Position numbers and translations under genes: made by a program. DNA of 33,077 nt from the NCBI GenBank assembly GCA_018304165.1, contig JAGVWS010000003.1, positions 1 through 33,077 on the forward strand. Reading direction: 5' to 3'. Under the pieces are notes generated by a model. The model was not told where the DNA came from. It made no database searches and was given only the letters and a program-made list of their open reading frames with translations. The stretch is from Candidatus Pacearchaeota archaeon (GTDB lineage: Archaea; Nanobdellota; Nanobdellia; Pacearchaeales; GW2011-AR1). This document shows, in pieces, positions 5,828 through 31,959 of this stretch (position 1 is the first letter of the stretch; each line of letters opens with the position of its first letter).

Positions 5828-5980
5828 TGAGCCTGCGCAGATTTGAACTGCGGACTTCCGGCTTTCTTAGCACGAATGCTGTGAAGCATTAATTGCCTTC
5901 AAATTTGCATTGATTTGCATCAGCGAAGGAAATCAACGTCGTATAAGACCGGCGTTCTAACCGGGCTGAACTACAGGCTC
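5828..5980 (-). tRNA. tRNA-Ile (anticodon UAU) with 78-nt intron (5864-5941) at the canonical 37/38 site
   Basis: GAGCCTG-TA-GTTC..GAAC-G-CCGGT-CTTATA[intron]A-GCCGG-AAGTC-CGCAG-TTCAAAT-CTGCG-CAGGCTC-A; all stems pair. Confidence 0.82.
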
Positions 5981-6098: not shown

Positions 6099-7295
6099 AT
6101 GCTAATCGGCCTTGTTGGCGCTCCGAATGTGGGGAAGAGCACGTTTTTCAAAGCTGCGACTCTCGCTGACATACTTATAGCAAATTATCCGTTTGCAACG
6201 ATAAAACCTAACAGAGGCGTGGCTTATGTAAGGATTGACTGTATTGACAAAGAGTTTAAAGTTAAGTGCGCTCCGCGGGAAGGATACTGCGTTAATGGAC
6301 AGAGGTTCGTACCGTTTGAATTAATGGATGTTGCAGGATTAGTGCCGGATGCTTCAAAAGGAAAAGGATTAGGAAACCAATTTCTTGATGATTTGAGGCA
6401 GGCAGACGCTTTTATTCAAATAGTAGATTTGTCCGGGGAGACTAATGAGGAGGGAAAAGCAGTAGAGGATTATTATCCCGGGAAGAGCATTGCTTTTTTG
6501 GAGAAGGAAATTGACTTATGGTATGTCGGAATATTAAAAAAGGTCTGGCATGTTTTTGCAAGAACTGCCGAGATGCAGAAGCAGAACTTCGCTCAAGCTG
6601 TCGCAAAGCAATTCTCTGGATTGAAAGTCACTGAAGATGATGTCAAGAAAGTTCTGTTAAAATTAGGACAGGAGTACAATTCAGAAAAGCCTACGAAATG
6701 GAGCGATGAGCAGCTGTTTGAGTTTGCAAGCCAGCTCAGAAAATTAACAAAGCCGATGGTTATAGTTGGAAATAAGATTGATACATTAAGAGCCAGGGAA
6801 AATTTTGATAAAATTGCCGGGGAATTTCCGGATTATAATATTATTCCGTGCTCTGCCGAAAGCGAGCTGGCTTTAAGAGAAGCTGCTAAAGCAGGAATAA
6901 TTGATTATATCCCCGGAGATAATTATTTTAAGGTAAAAGATGAGAGCAAGTTAAGTGACAAGCAAAATAAGGCCCTGAAGTTTATTAAAGAAAAGATACT
7001 TGATGTTTACGGAAGCACCGGAGTGCAGAAAGTTTTGGATTATGCAGTTTTTGATATGTTGAATTATATTGCTGTGTTTCCTGCGGGCGTTAAGAAACTA
7101 GCAGACAGCAAGGGAAATATACTGCCGGACTGTTTCTTGATTCCGAGAGGCAGCACAGCTCTTGACTTTGCATATAAACTGCACACTGACTTTGGAAAGA
7201 ACTTTGTCAAGGCAATTGATGTGAGGACAAAGCTGGCTGTAGGGAAAGAACATAAACTGAAGCATAGAGATGGAATCGAGATATTGACGAGATAA
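6099..7295 (+). CDS. YchF/Obg-like GTPase with C-terminal TGS domain
   Basis: G1 GAPNVGKST, DVAGLV, GNKID; TGS-like C-terminus (CFLIPRGSTALDFAYKLHTDFGKNFVKAIDVRT). Confidence 0.92.
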   Translation: MLIGLVGAPNVGKSTFFKAATLADILIANYPFATIKPNRGVAYVRIDCIDKEFKVKCAPREGYCVNGQRFVPFELMDVAGLVPDASKGKGLGNQFLDDLRQADAFIQIVDLSGETNEEGKAVEDYYPGKSIAFLEKEIDLWYVGILKKVWHVFARTAEMQKQNFAQAVAKQFSGLKVTEDDVKKVLLKLGQEYNSEKPTKWSDEQLFEFASQLRKLTKPMVIVGNKIDTLRARENFDKIAGEFPDYNIIPCSAESELALREAAKAGIIDYIPGDNYFKVKDESKLSDKQNKALKFIKEKILDVYGSTGVQKVLDYAVFDMLNYIAVFPAGVKKLADSKGNILPDCFLIPRGSTALDFAYKLHTDFGKNFVKAIDVRTKLAVGKEHKLKHRDGIEILTR

Positions 7296-7500
7296 TTAAG
7301 AATCTACTAATAACCCGATTATAACGATTTAGCACCAATTATGCTAGTAAAAATTAAATACGATTATTAATAATCTTGACAAATGCTCTAAACTATTGAT
7401 AACCTTATTTTGCTAATGGGTTGGCGCCATATAAGTTAATTTGTACGCAACATTAGAGTTAATTAATAACTGAGAGAATTAATGACAATTAGGCTAATTA

Positions 7501-9543
7501 TCATCTGTACTCATTTCTCTCCTTGAACCTGCTTATGAATTCGGCGTTTTCTTCTCTGTCAACTATTGATGTAACCTCATAGACATCCATATCTCCCTTG
7601 ACTTTCTTTCTTGTTTTAACGGCAGGGGATGTCTTTTTATGCATTGTCTGGGATATTAACAGCTCATTTCCTGCCTCAGCTACTTCTGCTGTTTTCTTTG
7701 CCAGCGAGATGGTGTTTCCGAGGCTTGTGAACTTGAGCTTATTGGTCTGCCTGTCAATCTCAACTACTAAGTCTCCGGTATGGACTCCTACACCAAAGCT
7801 TATTTTGTCCCTGAATTTTGAATTGTGCTCTTTAAGGAGGGAAATTATTTCCTGTGCAGCTTTGATTCCGGTTATCTCATTCCTGAATGTCTTTGTGACT
7901 GAAGGAGCGAAAATTCCTATTATAAAATCGTTGACGCTGTATACCGTTCCCTTGCTTCCGGTTATTGCAGAGTTTACAGAGTTGAGGGTTTCTCTGCAGT
8001 AATCTATTTTCCTGAGATTTTGCATGTCTTTGAGTTTTACGGCAACTATTGAGCAGAGCTCCTTGATGCCTTTGATAACCAGCGAATGCTCTGCTTCCCT
8101 TGGCGTAATACGGGAAGATTTTATACCCGTGTCAGAGCCCAAGCTTTTTGCAGATGCAGAACTTACAGAAGATTCAAGGGATGGAGATTCTTTGTGCTTC
8201 CTTCTTAAAAGAGCAGATAAATTTGGCATATGAGCAAGGAATTTCTGCTTTCCAAGGCCCTTTGAAATCCCGAAGATGAATAATCCAAGAACTCCAAGAA
8301 TGAACAGCCATACTAGGGAATATCTCGATACTACAGAGGTTCCTCTTGATAAGTCCACTACTTTGACGGCGCTTCCAGTCAATGCAACTGACGAAGCGGA
8401 GAATGTTTCAACACCGTCCGTTGCAGAAACATCATAACTTCCGTCGGGCGCCTGGAGGTTGAATGTTGAAGACTCTCCTACATTAAGTTTTATCTCTAAA
8501 ACTTCTTTGTTCTCTCCAATTCCTACTTCAACATTCTTCCTGTAAGGGATATTTCCGGTGTTTGTCACCTTTAGAGTAGTGTTGATAATTTCAAAGCTTA
8601 CTTTTTCTACTTCCGGAACATAGAAGTACCTCTTTGCTGAAAAGTCGCTTAATTTTGCAGTTATCGTCCTGTAACCAGGGCTTTCGTTTAATGGAATCTC
8701 AAGAATTATATCTTCGTTGGAAAAGACAATCCTGTCGCTTATCTTTTCGTCAGCACCATCAAATAAAGAGTAGCGGGCTTGGACATCCATTGTCTGGTTG
8801 ATTTGATCGTAGATGAGGAGCCTGAATTTGTAGTTTTCGCCGGGCTTTGCCTCCTGATTTTCAATTGATATCTCAAGCACTCTCGGCTCCTGCTTCACGA
8901 AGAGATTGTTCTCAAGGAGGGCCTTGTTTGTAGTTTCTCCTTGCTTATCTCTTTCATAGACTTCGGTCTTGATGGAGTAAATGCCGGAGGGCATGTTTAA
9001 TGGAATGCTGAAATTCGTTTCAAATTTGCCGTCGACTACATTCTTTGTCAGAGATATTCCAGCTTCTGAGAATGTTATGCTTGCGAATCCCTGGACGGGC
9101 TTTCCTGTTGCTTTTACTGCATCAAGCTTCAGAACTACAGCCTCGCTCGGGTTGAATTCCTTCTTGTCCAATTCAAGGTAGGCATCAATCCTGTTGCTTA
9201 TCTCAAACGCCTGGCTTTGGGAGGAAGTGTCTGAATAAGAAGCAATGACATAACACTGCCCAAGAAGGTCGTTGATGAATGCCTTTGTTAACGGAAAAGT
9301 TTTCTTGACTATAGTTGATGAGAGGATATCGTGAGTAATTGTTACTTTGCCGTTCTCGCAGACGAGCTGCATATCAAAATAACTGTCCGACAATTCGCTT
9401 ACTGTGGCTGAAAGAGTGATTTCATCCCCTAAATTGTAAATAGATGCAGGTTGCTCAAGGAAAATCTCGGCGCTTGCAGGAGGAATAATTAGAAAAATGC
9501 CAATCAAGGCCAATAAAAGCAAAAATAATCGTATTTTCCTCAT
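7501..9543 (-). CDS. membrane protein: signal peptide, Ig-like ectodomains, TM, C-terminal class III nucleotidyl cyclase-like domain
   Basis: TM SLVWLFILGVLGLFIFGIS; cyclase-like FGVGVHTGDLVVEIDRQTNKLKFTSLGNTISLAKKTAEVAEAGNELLIS. Confidence 0.8.
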   Translation of the reverse strand: MRKIRLFLLLLALIGIFLIIPPASAEIFLEQPASIYNLGDEITLSATVSELSDSYFDMQLVCENGKVTITHDILSSTIVKKTFPLTKAFINDLLGQCYVIASYSDTSSQSQAFEISNRIDAYLELDKKEFNPSEAVVLKLDAVKATGKPVQGFASITFSEAGISLTKNVVDGKFETNFSIPLNMPSGIYSIKTEVYERDKQGETTNKALLENNLFVKQEPRVLEISIENQEAKPGENYKFRLLIYDQINQTMDVQARYSLFDGADEKISDRIVFSNEDIILEIPLNESPGYRTITAKLSDFSAKRYFYVPEVEKVSFEIINTTLKVTNTGNIPYRKNVEVGIGENKEVLEIKLNVGESSTFNLQAPDGSYDVSATDGVETFSASSVALTGSAVKVVDLSRGTSVVSRYSLVWLFILGVLGLFIFGISKGLGKQKFLAHMPNLSALLRRKHKESPSLESSVSSASAKSLGSDTGIKSSRITPREAEHSLVIKGIKELCSIVAVKLKDMQNLRKIDYCRETLNSVNSAITGSKGTVYSVNDFIIGIFAPSVTKTFRNEITGIKAAQEIISLLKEHNSKFRDKISFGVGVHTGDLVVEIDRQTNKLKFTSLGNTISLAKKTAEVAEAGNELLISQTMHKKTSPAVKTRKKVKGDMDVYEVTSIVDREENAEFISRFKERNEYR

Positions 9544-18775: not shown

Positions 18776-20095
18776 ATGAGCGTGGAAAGAAAAGAGAGGA
18801 GTTATGTAAATGTGATAAAAGAGGGAGAGAGCGTCCTGCTTAAGGGATGGGTTCACGAAATAAGAGACTTATCAAAAATGAAATTCATTCTTTTAAGAGA
18901 TGTGACGGGGATTGTGCAATGCGTAATAAAGGATGAGAAATTGCTTAAGGAAGCGCATCAATTAACGCTTGAAAGCGTTATAGAAATAAAAGGACAGGTG
19001 AACAAAGCGCAGGTCAAGGCGGAGCTCTCACGCAAGGACGTTGAAGTGCATGTAAAAGAATTAACGATAATAAGCAAGGCTGAAACACTTCCAATACAAG
19101 TCAATGAAAAGACGATAACGACGGATTTGCCGACAAGGCTTGACTGGAGGTATTTAGACCTAAGAAAACCGAGAAATTTATTGATATTTAAAATATGGAC
19201 TTTTATGGAAAAAGCAATGAGAGAATTTTGGGAGCAAGAGGGATTTATACAGATATATTCTCCTAAGTTCATGCCATCACCAAGCGAGTCTGGAGCAGAA
19301 TTGTTTAGCGTAGATTATTTTGGAAAAAAAGCATACCTTGCTCAAAGCCCGCAATTCTACAAACAAATGGCCATGGCTGCTGGATTTGAAAAGATATTTG
19401 AGATAGGACCTGTTTTTAGAGCTAATCGTTCCCATACTGTGAGGCACGACACAGAATTTACAATGATTGATATGGAAATGTCGTTTATTAATTCGCATGA
19501 AGATGTTATGAAAACAGAAGAGAGATGGATACATCATTTTATCAAAAGAGTAAGGGAAGAATATGGAGAGGAAATAAAAAAAGTATTTGGTACAGAGGTT
19601 GTTGTGCCAAAGATACCCTTTCCCAGAGTTACTATGGCAGAAGCGCAAAAATTTGTTAGAGATAAAGGATACAAAGGGCCAAATGATGATCTTGATGCTG
19701 AAGGAGAGAAGTTATTATTTGAAGTAATAAAGGATAAATTTAATCATGAATTTGTTTTTGTTAAGGATTATCCTTGGAGTGCCCGTCCTTTTTATCATAT
19801 GAGGCATGCTGACAAACCAAATATCACGAAAAGTTTTGATTTGATATGGAAGGGAACAGAGGTAACAACCGGAGCACAGAGGGAGCACAGGCATGATATA
19901 TTGGTAAAACAGGCTAAAGAGAAAAAGATAAGCCTTGAATTAATAAAGAATTATCTAGATTTCTTCAGATGTGGCTGCCCTCCACACGGGGGTTTTGCAA
20001 TAAGCCCGACAAGATTCCTTATGTTAATGTTGAACATAAAAAATGTCAGAGAAGCGACGTTTTTGCCAAGAGATACGGAGAGGCTAACGCCATAA
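18776..20095 (+). CDS. aspS: aspartyl-tRNA synthetase-like class II aaRS (paralog A)
   Basis: OB fold GWVHEIRDLSKMKFILLRD; LDWRYLDLR; SESGAELF; motif 2 FRANRSHTVRHDTEFTMIDMEM; motif 3 PPHGGFAISPTRFLML; C-terminus FLPRDTERLTP. Confidence 0.88.
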   Translation: MSVERKERSYVNVIKEGESVLLKGWVHEIRDLSKMKFILLRDVTGIVQCVIKDEKLLKEAHQLTLESVIEIKGQVNKAQVKAELSRKDVEVHVKELTIISKAETLPIQVNEKTITTDLPTRLDWRYLDLRKPRNLLIFKIWTFMEKAMREFWEQEGFIQIYSPKFMPSPSESGAELFSVDYFGKKAYLAQSPQFYKQMAMAAGFEKIFEIGPVFRANRSHTVRHDTEFTMIDMEMSFINSHEDVMKTEERWIHHFIKRVREEYGEEIKKVFGTEVVVPKIPFPRVTMAEAQKFVRDKGYKGPNDDLDAEGEKLLFEVIKDKFNHEFVFVKDYPWSARPFYHMRHADKPNITKSFDLIWKGTEVTTGAQREHRHDILVKQAKEKKISLELIKNYLDFFRCGCPPHGGFAISPTRFLMLMLNIKNVREATFLPRDTERLTP

Positions 20096-20101
20096 TAAAA
20101 A

Positions 20102-21031
20102 ATGACTAAGTTATATGATGCACATGCACATGTAGGAACAGACTACTTTTATCATAAAATAAAAAATTATGAAGAATTTGATTTTTCACTAAAAAAACTT
20201 TTAGAAAGAATGAAAAAAAATGGAGTAGAAAAATCAATTGTTTCACAATGCCCATCAATAAAAGAAATAACCTGTTGCGCATCAGCAGATATAAAAATAG
20301 AAAATAAAAAAATAGTGACACAATGTCCAAAATGTAAAAAGATATTAGCAAGATTAAATCATGACCCTTATAGAGATTACAACATAAAAATAGCAAGAGA
20401 AATAGAAGAACTAGGAGTAAAAGAAAAAATAATACCCTTCTTTATAATACACTTGCAAAATCCACTAATAAGAGAAGAAATAGACTTTTATAAAAAGAAT
20501 TATAAAAATTTTGGATTAAAATTTCACACATTAGTATCAAGAAGATCAATAATAAGTATAAAAGAAAAGATGAAAGGTCTGAATATTCCTCTATTAGTAC
20601 ATACAGGAGAAGAAACATATTGTCACCCAAATGAATTAGTAGAATTCTCAAAAAGTTATAAAGGAAAAATAATAATGGCACATGCAGCAAGATTATCCAT
20701 AGACTGTTTGAAAAAAGTTAATCAAATAAAAAACTTATTTGTAGATGTAACTCCATTAACCTCATTTTATAGAAGAATAATGGATGATGATTTTAAAACA
20801 ATACTAGAAAAGAAAGAAGCATTTAACCAGATAAGAGCACCATCAGATGTTTATCATTTTTTGTTAAAATACCTTGATTACAAAAAGCTATTATTTGGGA
20901 CAGATGCACCATGGTGTGATAAGTACGGGTTAGGATACGGATCAGAAGTAAAAATATTCAATGATTTAGAACTTAATTCTGAAATAAAAGAAAGCATAGC
21001 CTATAAAAATTTTGATAAATTATTTAATTAA
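20102..21031 (+). CDS. amidohydrolase-2/TatD-like TIM-barrel hydrolase with Cys4 insertion
   Basis: DAHAHVG, LLVHTGEE, IIMAHAAR, LLFGTDAPW; insertion ITCCASADIKIENKKIVTQCPKCKK. Confidence 0.8.
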   Translation: MTKLYDAHAHVGTDYFYHKIKNYEEFDFSLKKLLERMKKNGVEKSIVSQCPSIKEITCCASADIKIENKKIVTQCPKCKKILARLNHDPYRDYNIKIAREIEELGVKEKIIPFFIIHLQNPLIREEIDFYKKNYKNFGLKFHTLVSRRSIISIKEKMKGLNIPLLVHTGEETYCHPNELVEFSKSYKGKIIMAHAARLSIDCLKKVNQIKNLFVDVTPLTSFYRRIMDDDFKTILEKKEAFNQIRAPSDVYHFLLKYLDYKKLLFGTDAPWCDKYGLGYGSEVKIFNDLELNSEIKESIAYKNFDKLFN

Positions 21032-21092
21032 TTATTTAAAGTGAGTCACCTCTAGAAAGCTTTATAAACCTTAATATGTTTACTACTATGAG

Positions 21093-22403
21093 ATGAATAA
21101 AAGGACTTTAATCCGGGATTTGCCTGGTAAGCATGGAGAATCTGTTACACTTGGTGGTTGGGTAGACAAGGTAAAAGATCAGAAAAGAATGCAATTCTTA
21201 GTGTTGAGAGACCACACTGGTTATCTTCAAGTAGTAAACGAAAAAGGATCAACACCTTATGATAATGTTGTATCATCATTAAGTAATGAATCTGTTGTTT
21301 ATGTTGGTGGTAAGGTCATTCCTAATCCTTCTGTAAGAACTGGTAATGGTTTAGAATTAAGGCTGGAATCAATAGATGTTGCAAATACCCCATCAGGAAG
21401 CCTACCTATTGATGCATCATCTAATATTGACGCAAGACTTGACTGGCGTTATTTAGATTTAAGAGACCCCAAAAAATTATTAATCTTTAAAATTCAAACA
21501 ACTGCTGAACATGCAATGAGGGAATGGTGGATGAATAATGGATTTATGGAAATTCACTCACCTAAACTTCTTGGTGCAGCTAGCGAATCAGGAGCAGAAT
21601 TATTCAAATTAGACTACTTTGGAAAAACAGCATGCTTAGCTCAAAGCCCACAATTCTACAAACAAATGGCAATGAGTGCAGGATTTGACAGAGTTTTTGA
21701 GATAGGACCTGTATTCAGGGCTAATTCTTCACACACAAACAGACATGACACAGAATTCACAAGCGTTGATATGGAAGTATCGTTCGTAAATTCACACGAA
21801 GATGTAATGGAAATTGAAGAAAATTGGTTAAACTATGTTTTATCAAGAGTTAAAACCGCTCATGGTGAAGAAATTAAAAGATCTTACGGTCAAGAATTAG
21901 AAATTCCATCAGTTCCATTCCCAAGAGTAACAATGGATGAAGCATATAGAATATTAGATTCACAAGGCTATGTTGTACCAAGAGAACAGAAAGGAGACTT
22001 AGACCCTGAAGGAGAAAGAAGACTTGCTAAACACATAAAAGAAACTTTCAATCATGACTTTGTATTTGTTACAGACTATCCAGCTAAATCAAGAGCATTT
22101 TATCACATGAGACATGAAGACAGACCTGATATAACTAAGAGTTTTGATCTAATATGGAAAGGAACAGAAGTAACAACAGGAGCACAAAGAGAACACAGAT
22201 ATGACAGATTAGTAAATCAAGCAACAGAAAAAGGAATTGATCCTCAATCAGTATCATCATACACTGACTTCTTCAAGTATGGAGTACCCCCACATGGTGG
22301 GTTAGGATTTGGACTAACAAGAATGCTAATGAATATTACGGGTCTAGAAAATGTAAAAGAAGTAACATTTGTATATCGCGGACCAAACAGATTGACACCT
22401 TAA
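21093..22403 (+). CDS. aspartyl-tRNA synthetase-like class II aaRS (paralog B)
   Basis: LDWRYLDLRDPKKLLIFKIQTTAEHAMREWW; motif 2 FRANSSHTNRHDTEFTSVDMEV; motif 3 HGGLGFGLTRMLMN; PNRLTP. Confidence 0.9.
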   Translation: MNKRTLIRDLPGKHGESVTLGGWVDKVKDQKRMQFLVLRDHTGYLQVVNEKGSTPYDNVVSSLSNESVVYVGGKVIPNPSVRTGNGLELRLESIDVANTPSGSLPIDASSNIDARLDWRYLDLRDPKKLLIFKIQTTAEHAMREWWMNNGFMEIHSPKLLGAASESGAELFKLDYFGKTACLAQSPQFYKQMAMSAGFDRVFEIGPVFRANSSHTNRHDTEFTSVDMEVSFVNSHEDVMEIEENWLNYVLSRVKTAHGEEIKRSYGQELEIPSVPFPRVTMDEAYRILDSQGYVVPREQKGDLDPEGERRLAKHIKETFNHDFVFVTDYPAKSRAFYHMRHEDRPDITKSFDLIWKGTEVTTGAQREHRYDRLVNQATEKGIDPQSVSSYTDFFKYGVPPHGGLGFGLTRMLMNITGLENVKEVTFVYRGPNRLTP

Positions 22404-22467
22404 AATTTTAAATTATAGTTTGTTAAATTGTTCCTTCTCATTTTTCACAACTTTAAGAAATTCAATT

Positions 22468-22502
22468 GATCTTAAATAATTCTTCATTTTTAACTTAAGA
22501 TC
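22468..22502. terminator. stem-loop between aaRS paralog genes, possible terminator
   Basis: GATCTTAA/TTAAGATC perfect 8-bp stem, 19-nt loop. Confidence 0.35.
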
Positions 22503-22609
22503 ATCAATACTATTTATCGATAACTGCGTTAATTAATGTCCCACACCCTAGTATTTCGTAAAATAAAAATAAGATTAATTTTATATATACTCAAATATAC
22601 TATTCTCTT

Positions 22610-24034
22610 ATGAATAAGGGTATATCATTAAGAGAGGTTAAAAATATTGGTCCTGAATTTATAAAAGATTTTGTTGCTCGAGCTGATAATGGTAAGAATT
22701 ATACTTTTAAAGGAAGAATTACCGCAGTTAGAAATCATTCTAAAAGAACATTTTTTGATTTGTCAGATCATACTGGAACAATTCAAATAGTAATTGAGGA
22801 AGAAAAATTTAAAGATTATAAAGAGATAATCTCTTTGTCACCAGCATCATACATTGAAGTTAGCGGAGAATACTCTAACTCAAGACAACCCTCAGAATTA
22901 AAAGCTGACTCAATTAAAATTCTTTCAGAAGCAACTCTACCTCTATCTCCTACGCCTTGGAAAATAGATGGTTCTAGCTCAGATAATGTGAACCAAGTTT
23001 TTGGTTACACTGGTTTTTATTTAGCAAATCCTCAAAGAGCAGCAATACTAAAGATAAAAACAAACTTTGTTAATGCATTACATGAATACTTTCAAAATAA
23101 CAAATTTACTCTAGTTGAACCACCAATACTAACTAATAAAATACTATATGAACCTGAAAAAGCTATAAATGCTGAAGTGCATGGAGAAAAAGTATTCTTG
23201 TCACAATGTGCAACTTTTGAACTTGAAGCTTTAGCAATGGTCTTTGGAAAAGTTTACACTATCTCGCCAGCTTTTAGAAATGAAAAAGGTGGATCAAAAA
23301 GACACCTTGCAGAATATAGTCATGCAAAAGCAGAAGTTTTATTCGCAAACGTTGATGACCTAATATTTTTAGCCGGAGACTCAATTTATAACGCAATGAA
23401 AAAAACTGTTGAAATAAGTGGTAAAGAGTTAGAAATATTAGGTGTAAAAGTTGATTTAGAATTACTTAACCCAAAAAGTCATTTAAGCATGACTTATGAT
23501 GAGGCTGTAAAAATACTTCATGATAATGATTCTAAAATTGTTTATGGTGAAGGTCTAGCAAGAAGTGATGAAATGATTCTAACAAAACATGTTGGGAACA
23601 AATATCTCTGGGTTAAATTCTTACCTTTTGCTTCAGAAGGATTTCCTTATAAAAAAGTACTTGGTTCACCACATTTATCGATGACTTGCGATCTTATAGC
23701 CCCTCATGGAGCAGGAGAAATGGTGGGAGTAGCAGAAAAAACAACAGATATAGAAGAAATAATTGATAACTTAATAAAGAAAGGCAAAAAGAAAGAAATC
23801 AAAAGGTATTGGAAGTACGTTTTACTTAGAAAGTATGGTCTACCGTCTCATGGAGGAATAGGAGCTGCTCCAGAAAGAATCATTTATGGGCTATTAGGAT
23901 TAAATCATATAAGATTAACTAAACCTTGGCCAAGATACCCTGATAGAAAAATTAATCCAATAACAAAAGATAAACTGAATCCTTGGAAAGATAAAGATCT
24001 AGATAAAATAATAAAAAAATATAATCTAAAATGA
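22610..24034 (+). CDS. divergent asparaginyl-tRNA synthetase-like class II aaRS
   Basis: OB fold YTFKGRITAVRNHSKRTFFDLSDHTGTIQIVI; motif 2 FRNEKGGSKRHLAEYSHAKAEV; motif 3 LPSHGGIGAAPERIIYGLLGLNHIR. Confidence 0.85.
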   Translation: MNKGISLREVKNIGPEFIKDFVARADNGKNYTFKGRITAVRNHSKRTFFDLSDHTGTIQIVIEEEKFKDYKEIISLSPASYIEVSGEYSNSRQPSELKADSIKILSEATLPLSPTPWKIDGSSSDNVNQVFGYTGFYLANPQRAAILKIKTNFVNALHEYFQNNKFTLVEPPILTNKILYEPEKAINAEVHGEKVFLSQCATFELEALAMVFGKVYTISPAFRNEKGGSKRHLAEYSHAKAEVLFANVDDLIFLAGDSIYNAMKKTVEISGKELEILGVKVDLELLNPKSHLSMTYDEAVKILHDNDSKIVYGEGLARSDEMILTKHVGNKYLWVKFLPFASEGFPYKKVLGSPHLSMTCDLIAPHGAGEMVGVAEKTTDIEEIIDNLIKKGKKKEIKRYWKYVLLRKYGLPSHGGIGAAPERIIYGLLGLNHIRLTKPWPRYPDRKINPITKDKLNPWKDKDLDKIIKKYNLK

Positions 24035-24851
24035 AAATTAATCAATCAGTTGTAGATAAAATCATAAATTATACCTCCCTTGTAGCAAACTCGGGACAAG
24101 TTAATACCCCCCTGGAAGTTATGGGACTATAAGAGAATGGATAATTCAATCATTCATAAATAGCTCTTCAAGAATTTTAGAAATAGGATGCTCAACAGGT
24201 TTTATAGCTTATCAAATAAATAAGCTAACAGGAGCAAAAGTAACAGGGATAGATTTATCAAAGGATAGTATAGAAAAAGCAAAAATGAACTGCTTGGGAA
24301 TGGAAGGATGTGAATTCTTTGTTAGTGATGCTATTAATCTAAATTTTAAAAATGAATCTTTTACTCATGTTATATTAGGGGGTCATCTTCCATGGGTTTT
24401 AGAATCTGAAAGAAGTAAACACCTAAAAGAAGCAGTAAGAGTTCTAAAAACTGATGGTTTTTTATTAACTTCACTTTATTATTTTTCAACTAAACCATCA
24501 AAAAACTTCTTAGATAAATTTAATAATGAGTTTGGAACTTCACTAACTGCTAATGGTGGATACAACTACTGGAGTTCATTGTTTCATATCCCAGAACTAA
24601 GTTTGTATTATGAATCAAATTACAAAATTATTTATCCATCAAACAAAAGAAAAAAAGCATATCTATCTGTATTCAACATTGATCATCTTCCAGAATGGGA
24701 AAATAAAGTTAATCTATTTATACAAAATGGAAATTATTTATCATTCTTCGTGAAAGTTTTTAGAAAAGAAAAAAACAATATTTACAGACAATATCCACGT
24801 GGGGGAATCTATACCTGGAAAAAAATTGATTTGGTAGAAAAAGAAAAATAA
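24031..24851 (+). pseudogene. class I SAM methyltransferase, frameshifted (frame 1 24031-24132; frame 0 24105-24851)
   Basis: SRILEIGCSTGFIAYQINKLTGAKVTGIDLS lies upstream of the ORF-track start; one added C in the C6 run restores ...QVNTPPGSYGTIREWIIQ... Confidence 0.75.
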
Positions 24852-24865
24852 TGAAAAAATTCACT

Positions 24866-24938
24866 GCCTCCATAGCTCAGTTGGTAGAGCACATGACTGT
24901 TAATCATGGGGTCCAAGGTTCAAGTCCTTGTGGAGACG
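24866..24938 (+). tRNA. tRNA-Asn (anticodon GUU) with C2:A71 mismatch
   Basis: GCCTCCA-TA-GCTC-..-GAGC-A-CATGA-CTGTTAA-TCATG-GGGTC-CAAGG-TTCAAGT-CCTTG-TGGAGAC-G. Confidence 0.93.
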
Positions 24939-24967
24939 TTTATAAATACAACCTTCGCTAAAATAAT

Positions 24968-25624
24968 ATGGACTGGGACAATTTATACATTAAACATCCA
25001 GAATTTTGCATAAAAGAACTTGCTGAAGAAGTAGTAGACTTTGTGCCATTATTAAAAAAATTACCTGGAAGTGAAAAAGAAAAGAAAGTATATGACTTGG
25101 GATTTGGTGCTGGAAGACATATATTATATCTTGCAAGGTTAGGATACAAAGTTTATGGTGATGACATATCAAACTCTGGTAAGGAAATAACTCAAAAACA
25201 ACTTGATAAAGAAGGATTAAAAGCTAAGCTTGGAATAAGTGATATGACTGTAATTCCTTATAAACATAATTTCTTTGATGCAATAATTAATAGAGGGGTA
25301 ATAACTCATAATACTCTTGATAACATAAAAAAATGTATTTCTGAAATGAATCGCACTATAAAAGTTGGAGGGTTAGTAATGACAACGTTTATATCAACTG
25401 AAAGCTCAGAATACGGAAAAGGAAAGGAAATTGAGCATAACACTTTTGTTCCAGATTCTGGGCCTGAAGAAGGAGTACCACACCACTTTGTTACAAAAGA
25501 AGAAGTTGAAATATTAATGTCATCATTTGAGATGATGAAACTCTACCATTACAAACATAAAGGCTTACTAAAAGTTGGAAATTATGTTTCAGCACACTGG
25601 ATTTATTTTGGGAGAAAAATATAG
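24968..25624 (+). CDS. class I SAM-dependent methyltransferase
   Basis: KKVYDLGFGAGRHILYLARLGYKVYGDDIS; FFDAIINRGVITH; GGLVMTTF. Confidence 0.88.
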   Translation: MDWDNLYIKHPEFCIKELAEEVVDFVPLLKKLPGSEKEKKVYDLGFGAGRHILYLARLGYKVYGDDISNSGKEITQKQLDKEGLKAKLGISDMTVIPYKHNFFDAIINRGVITHNTLDNIKKCISEMNRTIKVGGLVMTTFISTESSEYGKGKEIEHNTFVPDSGPEEGVPHHFVTKEEVEILMSSFEMMKLYHYKHKGLLKVGNYVSAHWIYFGRKI

Positions 25625-25635
25625 AGAGTAATAAT

Positions 25636-26484
25636 ATGGTTTTTAATGGTATGTATTATTTATTGAATGCAAAATGTCCTCATTTATGTAATGGATGTTT
25701 TCTTGATTCTCAAATGAGTTACTCTGCAAGAAATTCTGATCAAGCAATTAGAGATTTAACACAACTAAAAGAAGACTGGAAAAAAATCAGAGTAACAGGA
25801 TCAAATGTTTTAAGATTTCTAAAAATTGAAGAAATATTAAAATTATGCGAACAGGATTATATTCTTGGTGATGTTTTCACAATTAAAAGAGATAAAGAAA
25901 GATTAGAAAGACTAAAAGAATCAGGACTAAAAAGAGTTTTTATAACCAGTTCATACTCTGATAATGTTACAAAAAAAGTTTCATTAGAAGAAGCATCTAA
26001 GGCAATAAAAAAATTAGGACTTGAATTAGCAATAAGTTATATTATGACACATAATAATAAAGGAGAAGTTGCTAATATGGTAGAAGAAGCAATTAGTGTA
26101 AATGCAAATTCAATGCGTTTTATGAGGTATTTACCAACTGATGAAAAACCAAATTCATTGAACCTAACTGATGATGAAGAAAGAGAATTAATTGATAAGA
26201 TATACAAATTAAGATCTGAAATACCTAAAGATAAAATAAAAATATTCATTCATGGACATTTTGGCACAAAATTTCGCCCATCAAAAGGACCAATATGCTT
26301 TGCTGGTGAAGAAATGTTCTTTATAGGTTTAGATAATCTTGTGTACCCTTGCGAATTTTTAATAAATCCAAATAATGTAATGGGAAAATTCTTTGAAGGA
26401 AAAGTAAAAATTGATAGGAAACTATGTGGTTATGAAAATGATGAATGTAAACTTCTACAAATGCATTCTGGAAGAAAGAGATAA
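25636..26484 (+). CDS. radical SAM protein
   Basis: NAKCPHLCNGCF (CX3CX2C); C-terminal CFAGEEMFFIGLDNLVYPCEF...LCGYENDEC auxiliary-cluster-like cysteines. Confidence 0.82.
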   Translation: MVFNGMYYLLNAKCPHLCNGCFLDSQMSYSARNSDQAIRDLTQLKEDWKKIRVTGSNVLRFLKIEEILKLCEQDYILGDVFTIKRDKERLERLKESGLKRVFITSSYSDNVTKKVSLEEASKAIKKLGLELAISYIMTHNNKGEVANMVEEAISVNANSMRFMRYLPTDEKPNSLNLTDDEERELIDKIYKLRSEIPKDKIKIFIHGHFGTKFRPSKGPICFAGEEMFFIGLDNLVYPCEFLINPNNVMGKFFEGKVKIDRKLCGYENDECKLLQMHSGRKR

Positions 26485-26603: not shown

Positions 26604-27926
26604 ATGATAAAAAAAACTGAAACAGAAAAGGAAGAACATTATACATCAATAGCCGACGCCCTGCGTCAAGGCTCTGGAAGAGTAGCAGTGCGCGGCTGGG
26701 TTTATCGCGAGAGGGGAAGCAACGAAATGAAATTCATAGTACTAAGAGATTCCAGCAATGTAATACAATGCGTGCTCAAGAAGGAGAAGTTCACTAAGCA
26801 ATGGGCAGATATAGACAAGATAAGAATTGAATCATCGCTTGAAATATGGGGAGAGATAAAGAAGGATGAAAGAGCACCGACGGGGTATGAAATAGTGGCT
26901 GATAAAATCACTATAGTGCACATCGCTGAAGAATTCCCTATAAACAAGGACTTGAATGAAGAGTTGCTGGGAGACAGAAGGCATTTATGGCTTAGAAGCA
27001 GAAAAATGACAGCTATATTGAAAATACGCTCAACAGTATTTCATGCTATAAGAGAATATTTCGAAAGCAAAAAATTCTACGAATTCCATAGCCCCTTCCT
27101 GATTCCGGGCGGGGCTGAAGACGGGCCGACGATGTTTGAGGTAAACTACTTCAAGAAGAAGATGTACCTTGCACAGACATGGCAGTTATACGCTGAATCA
27201 GCAATATTCTCTCTTGAAAAAATCTTTACCATTGCTCCCAGCTTCAGAGCTGAAGAAAGCAAGACAAGCAGACATCTAACAGAATACTGGCACGCAGAAA
27301 TGGAAATAGCATGGGCAGGCTTGAAAGAAATAATGAATTATGCAGAAGAATTAGTTAAGCATGTGATAAAGAGAGTGATTGATAATAACAAAGAAGAGCT
27401 GAAAATATTGGAAAGAGATGTAAAGAAGCTTGAGCCATCGCTAAAAAAATCCTTTCCAAGAGTAACTTATGATGAAGTGCTCAAGGAATTAAAGAGCAGG
27501 CACAGAATGGAAGTGGCATGGGGAAAGGACTTGAGAACTATTGAAGAAGAAAAATTCATGTCATTACACGATACTCCGGTATTCGTAACTCATTATCCAA
27601 AAGACACAATGGCATTCTACAAGCCACGCGACCCCAAAAATCCGAAGGTAGCATTATGCTTTGACATGCTTGGGCCAGAAGGAAATGGAGAAATAATAGG
27701 AGGAAGCGAGAGGGACATGGATGTTGAAGACATGAAAAAAAGCCTGAAAGCAAAAGGGGAAAAAATAGAAGATTATTCTTATTATTTTGATACGCGACGC
27801 TATGGAAACATCCCGCATGGAGGATTCGGAATGGGAACTGAAAGATTAATAAAATGGATATGCGGACTAGAAAGCATTAAAGACGCAATAGCATTCCCAA
27901 GAACACAAGGAAGAATGATACCGTAA
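26604..27926 (+). CDS. asnS: asparaginyl-tRNA synthetase
   Basis: PGGAEDGPTMFEVNYF, YLAQTWQLYAESAI, motif 2 FRAEESKTSRHLTEYWHAEMEIAW, motif 3 PHGGFGMGTERLIKWICGLESIKDAIAFPRTQGRMIP. Confidence 0.93.
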   Translation: MIKKTETEKEEHYTSIADALRQGSGRVAVRGWVYRERGSNEMKFIVLRDSSNVIQCVLKKEKFTKQWADIDKIRIESSLEIWGEIKKDERAPTGYEIVADKITIVHIAEEFPINKDLNEELLGDRRHLWLRSRKMTAILKIRSTVFHAIREYFESKKFYEFHSPFLIPGGAEDGPTMFEVNYFKKKMYLAQTWQLYAESAIFSLEKIFTIAPSFRAEESKTSRHLTEYWHAEMEIAWAGLKEIMNYAEELVKHVIKRVIDNNKEELKILERDVKKLEPSLKKSFPRVTYDEVLKELKSRHRMEVAWGKDLRTIEEEKFMSLHDTPVFVTHYPKDTMAFYKPRDPKNPKVALCFDMLGPEGNGEIIGGSERDMDVEDMKKSLKAKGEKIEDYSYYFDTRRYGNIPHGGFGMGTERLIKWICGLESIKDAIAFPRTQGRMIP

Positions 27927-29850: not shown

Positions 29851-30615
29851 CTAAACTAGCCTCCTTATTGTTATATCAAATAGCAGGTTAAAAATACTTT
29901 CGTTTCTATGATTAAATCGAAACTCCATTTCTTTTAGGTAGAATGGATAGTTTGTTTTGTTAATCCCATGATACTTGTGGAATCTCTCTTTAGCATAACT
30001 CCAGAATCCTTCTATCCCATTAATATGATTACGCCCATTAGCAAATTCGTCTTCATGATGCTTGATAATATTGTGTTTACCATACTGCTCTAAACTTGCA
30101 TAGCTCTTCCATCCTTCAGTGTAGAACACTGAACCTTTGTTAGTCTTGTTCTTTATTTCATTCATTAAGGTGTCTGCACTAGCATTTGGCACTATCACTG
30201 TATGAACCTTTCCTCGTCGCTCTAAGATGCCAAATGCTATGGCTTTGTTATTAGCTCCTCTTCCTCTCTTGCCCTTTCTTCTTCCTCCCAAATAAGTTTC
30301 ATCTAACTCTAATTCTCCATCTAACTTTTTAGTTTCCTTATTGCAGTAATCTGCAATAAGCTTTCTGAAGCTCATAAACTTTGATTGAACGGTCTTATAA
30401 TTAATTCCCAGTTCTTTAGCAGTCTTTCTTGCAGATAATTCTAAATAAAAGTAGTAAAGAATTTGCAAGTCTGATTTGAGCTTCCTGATAGAATAATACT
30501 TCTTACAATTTTTACACTTAACTCTGTTATCTTTAAGTTTGTAAAGTCCATAATCACCACAAAATAAGCACTTTTTACCCTCAAAATACTTGCGTGCAAC
30601 ACCCTTTATCATCAA
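29851..30615 (-). CDS. IS1595-family (ISXO2-like) transposase
   Basis: Zn ribbon CLFCGDYGLYKLKDNRVKCKNCKKYYSIR; LELDETYLGGRRKGKRGRGANNK; FWSYAKERFHKYHGI; FRFNHR. Confidence 0.92.
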   Translation of the reverse strand: MMIKGVARKYFEGKKCLFCGDYGLYKLKDNRVKCKNCKKYYSIRKLKSDLQILYYFYLELSARKTAKELGINYKTVQSKFMSFRKLIADYCNKETKKLDGELELDETYLGGRRKGKRGRGANNKAIAFGILERRGKVHTVIVPNASADTLMNEIKNKTNKGSVFYTEGWKSYASLEQYGKHNIIKHHEDEFANGRNHINGIEGFWSYAKERFHKYHGINKTNYPFYLKEMEFRFNHRNESIFNLLFDITIRRLV

Positions 30616-30837: not shown

Positions 30838-31959
30838 TTGAATATCAAAGATTTAGAAAATCCTTATGTTCTTTCTCTAATTTATTCACAATTGTTAGAA
30901 AACAAAAGTATAAACAAACTTGAAAGTTGGATGAAGTACACAGAAATACCTTATCTGTTAGGCTTTGATAAAGTATCTGTTAAAAATCTTTATGAATCAT
31001 TATCTGATGTCAATGAAAAAGATTTTGAAAAGGTAAATGAAAAAATGTTTTTTATTTTTAACAAATATGAAGATATTTCTAAAGCCACAATTATTGATGT
31101 AACAGATACTTATTTTGCTGGAAGCAAAATAAATATTAAAAAAAGAAAAGGGAAAGATAAGAAAATAAGCAAATTAACTCAAATAGGTTTAGCAGTTTCT
31201 TTTGAGAATGGATTTCCAATTTTTCATAAACAATATCATGGAAATCTTTCTGGAATGGACCTAAAAAATAAGAAAATAGCGTCGATAATTATGGATAGGG
31301 GAATGCTTTCTAAAGAAAATATAGAGATGGCTTTAGAGTTAAAATTTAAAATTATTGCAGGTTTAAGAAAAAATTCTGCTTTAACTAAAACCTTTATTGA
31401 ACCAATAAAACGGGATGATATTTACTCTGCAAAATGCAGAGTTCCTTTAAAAAAGACAACTGTTTTCATAAAAGAATTTGATTATATGAAGGGGAAATTA
31501 ATAGTTGTTTACAATCCTGCTTTAGAAGTTGTGAAAAAAGAGATAAATTTTGAAAAAGAACTCGAAAGTAATTTTGATATAGGATATTCGTTAATTTACC
31601 ATAATACAAAATATTCTTCTGCGCAAGTTGTAAAAAGATATTATAATAAAGATATGATTGAAAGAGCATTTAAACAATTAAAAGGAGTTCTAAGTTTAAG
31701 ACCGATAAGAGTTTGGCTTTCAAATCATGTCGCAGGGCATATAAAAATTTGTTATCTTGCATATGCAATTTTATCTTTGATGAATTATAAATTGAAAAAA
31801 TTAGATATCTCTGCAGTTGAAGCTCTAGAATCTTTGAAATACGGCTATAAAGTAACTCTGAAAGATTCTACTTCAAATCATGAATGGAGCATTCATGTTC
31901 CTCTTGAACCTAAACAGAAAAAAATATTAAAAAAATTAAATGTAATGCCTAAAAACTAG
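30838..31959 (+). CDS. IS4/IS1634-type transposase, N-terminally truncated
   Basis: IIDVTDTYFAGSK, IIMDRGMLSKENIEMAL, KDMIERAFKQLKGVLSLRPIRVWLSNHVAGHIKICYLAY; frame stays open upstream only to 30736. Confidence 0.85.
   Translation: MNIKDLENPYVLSLIYSQLLENKSINKLESWMKYTEIPYLLGFDKVSVKNLYESLSDVNEKDFEKVNEKMFFIFNKYEDISKATIIDVTDTYFAGSKINIKKRKGKDKKISKLTQIGLAVSFENGFPIFHKQYHGNLSGMDLKNKKIASIIMDRGMLSKENIEMALELKFKIIAGLRKNSALTKTFIEPIKRDDIYSAKCRVPLKKTTVFIKEFDYMKGKLIVVYNPALEVVKKEINFEKELESNFDIGYSLIYHNTKYSSAQVVKRYYNKDMIERAFKQLKGVLSLRPIRVWLSNHVAGHIKICYLAYAILSLMNYKLKKLDISAVEALESLKYGYKVTLKDSTSNHEWSIHVPLEPKQKKILKKLNVMPKN

Follow-up and report, generated by a model that had tools for sequence, protein, structure and literature searches.

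The window analysed here, a stretch of 33,077 nucleotides, is contig C3 of a Candidatus Pacearchaeota archaeon genome assembly (GCA_018304165.1; 42 contigs totalling 866,627 bases; completeness 79%). A tRNA-Asn gene lies in it within a run of genes on one strand, flanked by native AspRS and AsnRS genes:

18776..20095, plus strand: AspA, the native AspRS, outside the low-GC3 block
20102..21031, plus strand: amidohydrolase-family protein (AmidoH), low GC3, leftmost gene of the compositional block
21093..22403, plus strand: AspB, a second archaeal-type AspRS, motifs intact, low GC3
22610..24034, plus strand: AsxD, a divergent AsnRS-like class IIb protein with an OB-fold
24031..24851, plus strand: MT1, a methyltransferase, its start overlapping the AsxD stop, frameshifted
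24866..24938, plus strand: extra tRNA-Asn(GUU), mismatch C2:A71, G73, no CCA, no intron
24968..25624, plus strand: MT2, a SAM methyltransferase, low GC3
25636..26484, plus strand: radical-SAM-like protein (rSAM), a weak match below the Pfam cut-off, low GC3
26604..27926, plus strand: native AsnRS, scoring above the asnS cut-off of NCBIfam; not part of the low-GC3 block

Elsewhere in the window, a tRNA-Ser(UGA) whose 78-nt intron follows position 37 (5828-5980, minus strand) was missed by an intron-free search, and two transposase genes, one of IS1595 type (29851-30615, minus strand) and one of DDE_Tnp_1 type (30838-31959), lie to the right of the synthetase genes, near the contig end.

The tRNA gene begins 14 nt past the MT1 stop codon (24851) and ends 29 nt ahead of the ATG of MT2 (24968), as an earlier reading made from the DNA letters alone (the sequence-only reading) had reported. 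The start which that reading gave for the upstream methyltransferase, 24285, has to be moved: homology begins at 24108 and the frame opens at the ATG at 24031. MT1 is interrupted by a 1-nt frameshift at a run of six C residues near 24107, while its relative in L085 is intact; the frameshift is either an assembly error or real. The genes from 20102 to 26484 form a block of low GC3 between AspA and AsnRS, with values of 0.155 for AmidoH, 0.215 for AspB, 0.16 for AsxD, 0.21 for MT2 and 0.13 for rSAM, against 0.357 for AspA, 0.40 for AsnRS and 0.36-0.45 for most native genes nearby. By tetranucleotide composition the second half of contig C3 is less typical than the first, and in protein trees AsxD grouped with its counterparts in LaPlata_bin-1599 (LaPlata) and LFW-170_1 (LFW), and AspA with that of genome G019. 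Judged by composition and relationships, the block was probably acquired, or rebuilt, from an LFW/LaPlata-like lineage; no repeats of the sort that mark an insertion were found flanking it. The nearest relatives of AspB are found also in Bacillota, Actinobacteria, Chloroflexi and Patescibacteria, and the ordinary neighbours of these bacterial genes lend no support to AspB being an exotic enzyme. PADLOC, which detects anti-phage systems, returned nothing useful for the proteins of the block, and an anti-phage role was thus not supported either.

Both ARAGORN and Rfam called tRNA-Asn(GUU) at 24866-24938 (plus strand), in agreement with direct reading of the sequence; the RF00005 score was 68.5 bits (gathering cut-off 29), with a cloverleaf and a GUU anticodon. 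The acceptor strands, GCCTCCA and TGGAGAC, form G1-C72, then the mismatch C2:A71 (24867/24936), then five Watson-Crick pairs, and 2:71 is the sole non-standard pair in the full cloverleaf, which bears out the earlier description. Every invariant tRNA position is retained, CCA is not encoded, and the Asn identity set (anticodon GUU plus G73, at 24938) is complete. These invariant positions, together with compensatory pairs described below, rule out a tRNA pseudogene. An initiator-like tRNA is likewise ruled out by the GUU anticodon and the intact 1:72 pair; the bacterial initiator tRNA with its C1:A72, formerly offered as an analogy, is a loose parallel, the signal there lying at 1:72, not 2:71. 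CCACCA tagging marks unstable tRNAs that start with GG; it is disfavoured for the window tRNA, the 5' end of which is GC. The identity of tRNA-Asn resides chiefly in the anticodon and G73 (PMC9976931), and a survey, in the form in which that paper cites it, lists 2-71 among the Asn-informative positions; the C2:A71 mismatch could therefore weaken charging of the window tRNA. With the cloverleaf imposed, C2 is ~4 to 5 kcal/mol less favourable than U2, and the minimum free energy fold of the unmodified tRNA differs from the cloverleaf. Literature searches found no paper on an archaeal C:A mismatch at 2:71.

A second tRNA-Asn(GUU), detected by Rfam and by ARAGORN with introns allowed, lies at the end of contig C27 (16-110, minus strand). 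It contains a 20-nt intron, and its acceptor (GTCCTTG/CAAGGAC) is fully paired, with U2:A71. The window copy is therefore not the only tRNA-Asn of the genome, and the fully paired second gene whose presence the sequence-only reading had left to be looked for does exist. Contamination is an unlikely source of the C27 copy, since the tetranucleotide profile of C27 correlates with that of the rest of the genome at about 0.96. The genes that adjoin it (C27:1295-1798 and C27:2627-3067) are, by our reading of their sequences, KH-domain-like and aIF1A-like. Matches to both follow a tRNA-Asn on the same strand in seven of the eight family genomes tested, while in the eighth (G090) the marker pair adjoins a tRNA-Tyr in the stretch fetched; in LFW, G094 and G009 the tRNA-Asn and the marker genes are arranged as on C27. 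The window copy has no such conserved housekeeping neighbours. Given this synteny, the C27 copy is the housekeeping tRNA-Asn and the window copy is additional, a redundancy read from two copies in a genome that is 79% complete, not closed.

The genome encodes GatD, GatE and archaeal-type AspRS, and has intron-bearing tRNAs, features that mark it as archaeal; its nearest named loci come from Woesearchaeota and uncultured archaeon MAGs. GatA was not found in it and its AsnRS is a good one, which makes direct charging of the window tRNA by AsnRS likely; in LFW and LaPlata, GatA is present and a canonical AsnRS absent. Two tRNAs of the genome whose long variable arm gives them a class II shape, at C40:8088-8172 (L019) and C26:36622-36706 (L035), were read by ARAGORN as having the anticodon GUC (Asp), and an ordinary tRNA-Asp is also present (C7:7744-7815).

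Among 45 tRNA-Asn of the order, pair 2:71 was U-A in 27, C-G in nine, A-U in seven, G-C in one and C-A in one, the last being the window tRNA, the only mismatch at this position. The AsxD-linked tRNA-Asn of LFW and LaPlata both have an intact U2:A71. The linked LaPlata tRNA differs from that of the window at six bases, which make up the pairs 49:65 and 50:64 (both compensated) and positions 57 and 2. The compensated pairs indicate that cloverleaf pairing is still under purifying selection in the window tRNA, 2:71 alone being unpaired. A71 is best read as ancestral, and C2 as the product of one U-to-C transition from U2:A71; a G at position 71 would restore the pair, as had been pointed out, but the relatives show that the ancestral partner was U2. 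C:A pairs are found in the acceptor stems of other translating tRNAs in this clade, LaPlata having C6:A67 in tRNA-Glu(CUC) and tRNA-Thr(GGU), two of about 37 tRNAs; in the window's genome the only other acceptor mismatch is U6:U67, in tRNA-His. Among the 37 tRNAs found in LaPlata there was no tRNA-Asn apart from the AsxD-linked copy, nor did the native position next to the KH-like and aIF1A-like markers hold one (L289, G057 C5:112000-131999). The linked copy, as the only tRNA-Asn found, must translate there, and it seems to have replaced the native gene. Pair 2:71 is thus intact where the linked copy is alone (LaPlata) and broken where a native copy exists (the window's genome), a contrast that, with few genomes behind it, is consistent with a change being tolerated where the gene is redundant.

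The best explanation, to which we assign a probability of about 0.6, is that the window tRNA is a spare, functional elongator tRNA-Asn in an acquired block, C2:A71 being a tolerated U2-to-C change. The block (amidohydrolase-AspB-AsxD-MT1-tRNA-MT2-rSAM) would have come, probably from a relative of LFW and LaPlata, to be set between the native AspRS and AsnRS genes. The tRNA would probably be co-transcribed with AsxD and MT1, excised by RNase P and RNase Z, and provided with CCA; AsnRS (26604), the likely charger of both tRNA-Asn, would probably load it with Asn, and it would decode the codons that the native intron-bearing tRNA-Asn also reads. Since the native copy would bear the burden of decoding, the single transition in the ancestral pair would be tolerated. 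If this plain reading is true, a small tRNA set gains a spare tRNA along with a block of synthetase paralogues, and LaPlata appears to have lost its native tRNA-Asn and retained the imported one. It also carries a caution: a lone acceptor-stem mismatch, taken without comparison of orthologues, is unsafe as a functional signature. Against a spare copy stands the fact that three genera have retained a tRNA-Asn in the AsxD operon, nearer than neighbours by chance would lie, a hint that the tRNA is not simply carried along.

The weight of that hint depends on AsxD and its linkage. Family members were located as follows:

22610-24034: AsxD of the window
L083, 12366-13763: AsxD of LFW
L084, 13313-14728: AsxD of LaPlata
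L090, 3493-4812: AsxD of a Peregrinibacteria contig
L094, 8678-9985: a further AsxD family member

The best PDB match of AsxD is AsnRS (1x54; E 8.5e-42), with which it shares, by sequence, the class IIb fold, the OB-fold and the motif 2 and motif 3 Arg; the ATP motifs are kept. Unlike AsnRS, it scores below the cut-offs for the canonical enzyme (197.9 bits vs 342.6 for NCBIfam asnS, and 206.5 vs 414 for PRK03932) and has a C-terminal extension of about 25 residues. Its pocket is also altered: QRE of AspRS/AsnRS is replaced by AEK, the substrate-site Arg (R368 in 1b8a numbering, by alignment) being Lys in all AsxD, bacterial relatives included, and the Gln of the QSPQ/SxQ motif is replaced by Thr (Thr, Gly or Asn across the family). 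A further difference is that AsxD adjoins an AspRS gene in nearly all genomes checked, archaeal and bacterial. The exceptions are G365, where the AsxD contig is only 4.5 kb long and holds an AsnRS, and G058, where about 9 kb separate AspB from AsxD. In G058 (L085 / L292) the catalytic and OB-fold parts of AsxD are separate, about 6 kb apart, and MT1, a PLP-type gene, a metallo-beta-lactamase-fold gene and AsnA lie near AspB. A by-product of the analysis is therefore a clear AsnRS-like family with an altered amino-acid pocket and a near-constant AspRS neighbour, present in archaea and bacteria.

In LFW and LaPlata, the AsxD proteins of which are 77% and 79% identical to that of the window, respectively, a tRNA-Asn starts right after the AsxD stop codon, whereas in the window it lies one gene (MT1) beyond; a tRNA is thus next to AsxD in 3/3 members of the closest clade. 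In the stretches searched, no tRNA was directly adjacent to AsxD in G019, G403, G058/G390, G365, G345, G501, L090 or L094, the Peregrinibacteria and Clostridia contigs having none beside it, so the neighbour that a dedicated partner would lead one to expect in every AsxD genome is not general. Where tRNA-Asn and these synthetase genes share a contig, moreover, they tend to lie close: in 38 of 41 such genomes a tRNA-Asn is ≤15 kb from a match to AspRS, AsnRS or AsxD, mostly on the opposite strand, and closeness of tRNA-Asn to AspRS/AsnRS is therefore partly ancestral. The linkage of AsxD and tRNA is real and narrow, and a partnership is possible.

The sequence-only reading had proposed such a partnership, with C2:A71 marking a dedicated or non-translational tRNA. 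In this explanation AsxD, perhaps with AspB, would be specific for the linked tRNA-Asn, charging it with another amino acid or employing it to carry a product or modification, and the mismatch would help to channel it. The existence of a spare paired copy and the link kept in the two closest orthologues speak for a partner, as do the altered pocket beside conserved ATP motifs and the presence in the operon of methyltransferase and radical-SAM-like genes. The mismatch itself, however, is absent from the linked orthologues and so does not mark out a dedicated tRNA; that the LaPlata copy must translate, that AsxD elsewhere has no neighbouring tRNA and that nearness is partly ancestral also count against the proposal. 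The idea of a partner thus survives in part, and its supposed mark does not; taken as a whole, the explanation is unlikely.

There is a smaller chance that the organism has U at position 2 and that C was introduced in error when the metagenome contig was assembled. All linked orthologues have U at base 2, and the MT1 frameshift, which lies about 760 bases upstream, disrupts a frame that is intact in a relative; that frameshift may nevertheless be real, and a single substitution is atypical of errors in homopolymer runs.

AsxD and the linked tRNA-Asn might also form a dedicated pair within a transferable module that includes a second AspRS, either making a tRNA-dependent product or protecting Asp/Asn decoding against an inhibitor of the aspartyl-adenylate type, the mismatched tRNA being a specialised isoacceptor in this species. 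Protection is suggested by genes beside the module in two genomes. In LFW, an S66 peptidase of MccF/MccC type (L083 14146-15261; best PDB match E 1.6e-86, vs 3e-8 for murein carboxypeptidase) lies one small frame downstream of the gene that follows the linked tRNA, and on the Peregrinibacteria contig L090 an S66 peptidase beside AspB has an adjoining HIT-domain gene (6192-7223 and 7220-7759, both minus strand). Microcin C inhibits AspRS, and MccF and HIT-type hydrolases confer resistance to it (PMC9239234, PMC7157772). The block thus shares with microcin C self-immunity (MccF S66, HIT-type MccH) the adjoining genes in LFW and Peregrinibacteria, but departs from it in that the ThiF gene of LaPlata is nearer to the MoeB/ThiF families. 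Some AspB/AsxD blocks could, by this analogy, protect Asp decoding; the basis for this, seen in two genomes, is absent from the window, and a partial search by similarity found no MccF-type or HIT gene in the window's genome. For the window tRNA the idea of a dedicated pair in such a module is distinctly improbable.

Post-transcriptional repair, in which C2 is either deaminated to U or exchanged for U through 5' editing, would bring back the ancestral pair. It has precedents in the Thg1-like polymerases that mend mismatches in the first three acceptor pairs in some mitochondria (PMC4284800) and in the archaeon Methanopyrus kandleri, where tRNA undergoes C-to-U editing of base 8 (PMC3695527). 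Such repair is very improbable here: neither Thg1/TLP (PF04446) nor a PF00383 deaminase was found in the window's 79% complete genome, and the former was also missing from most of 56 relatives.

Set beside archaeal tRNA-Asn(GUU) (RF00005), the window tRNA has the same GUU anticodon, G73, G1-C72, invariant positions and cloverleaf, and differs in having C2:A71 instead of U2:A71, C2:G71 or A2:U71 and in being an extra copy in an AsxD operon. PylRS and tRNA-Pyl are a synthetase with its own tRNA gene adjoining, and the AsxD block resembles them in that a tRNA gene is linked to a synthetase paralogue and inherited together with it. Unlike tRNA-Pyl, the AsxD-linked tRNA is ordinary in its anticodon and identity set, and one genome uses it as its housekeeping tRNA.
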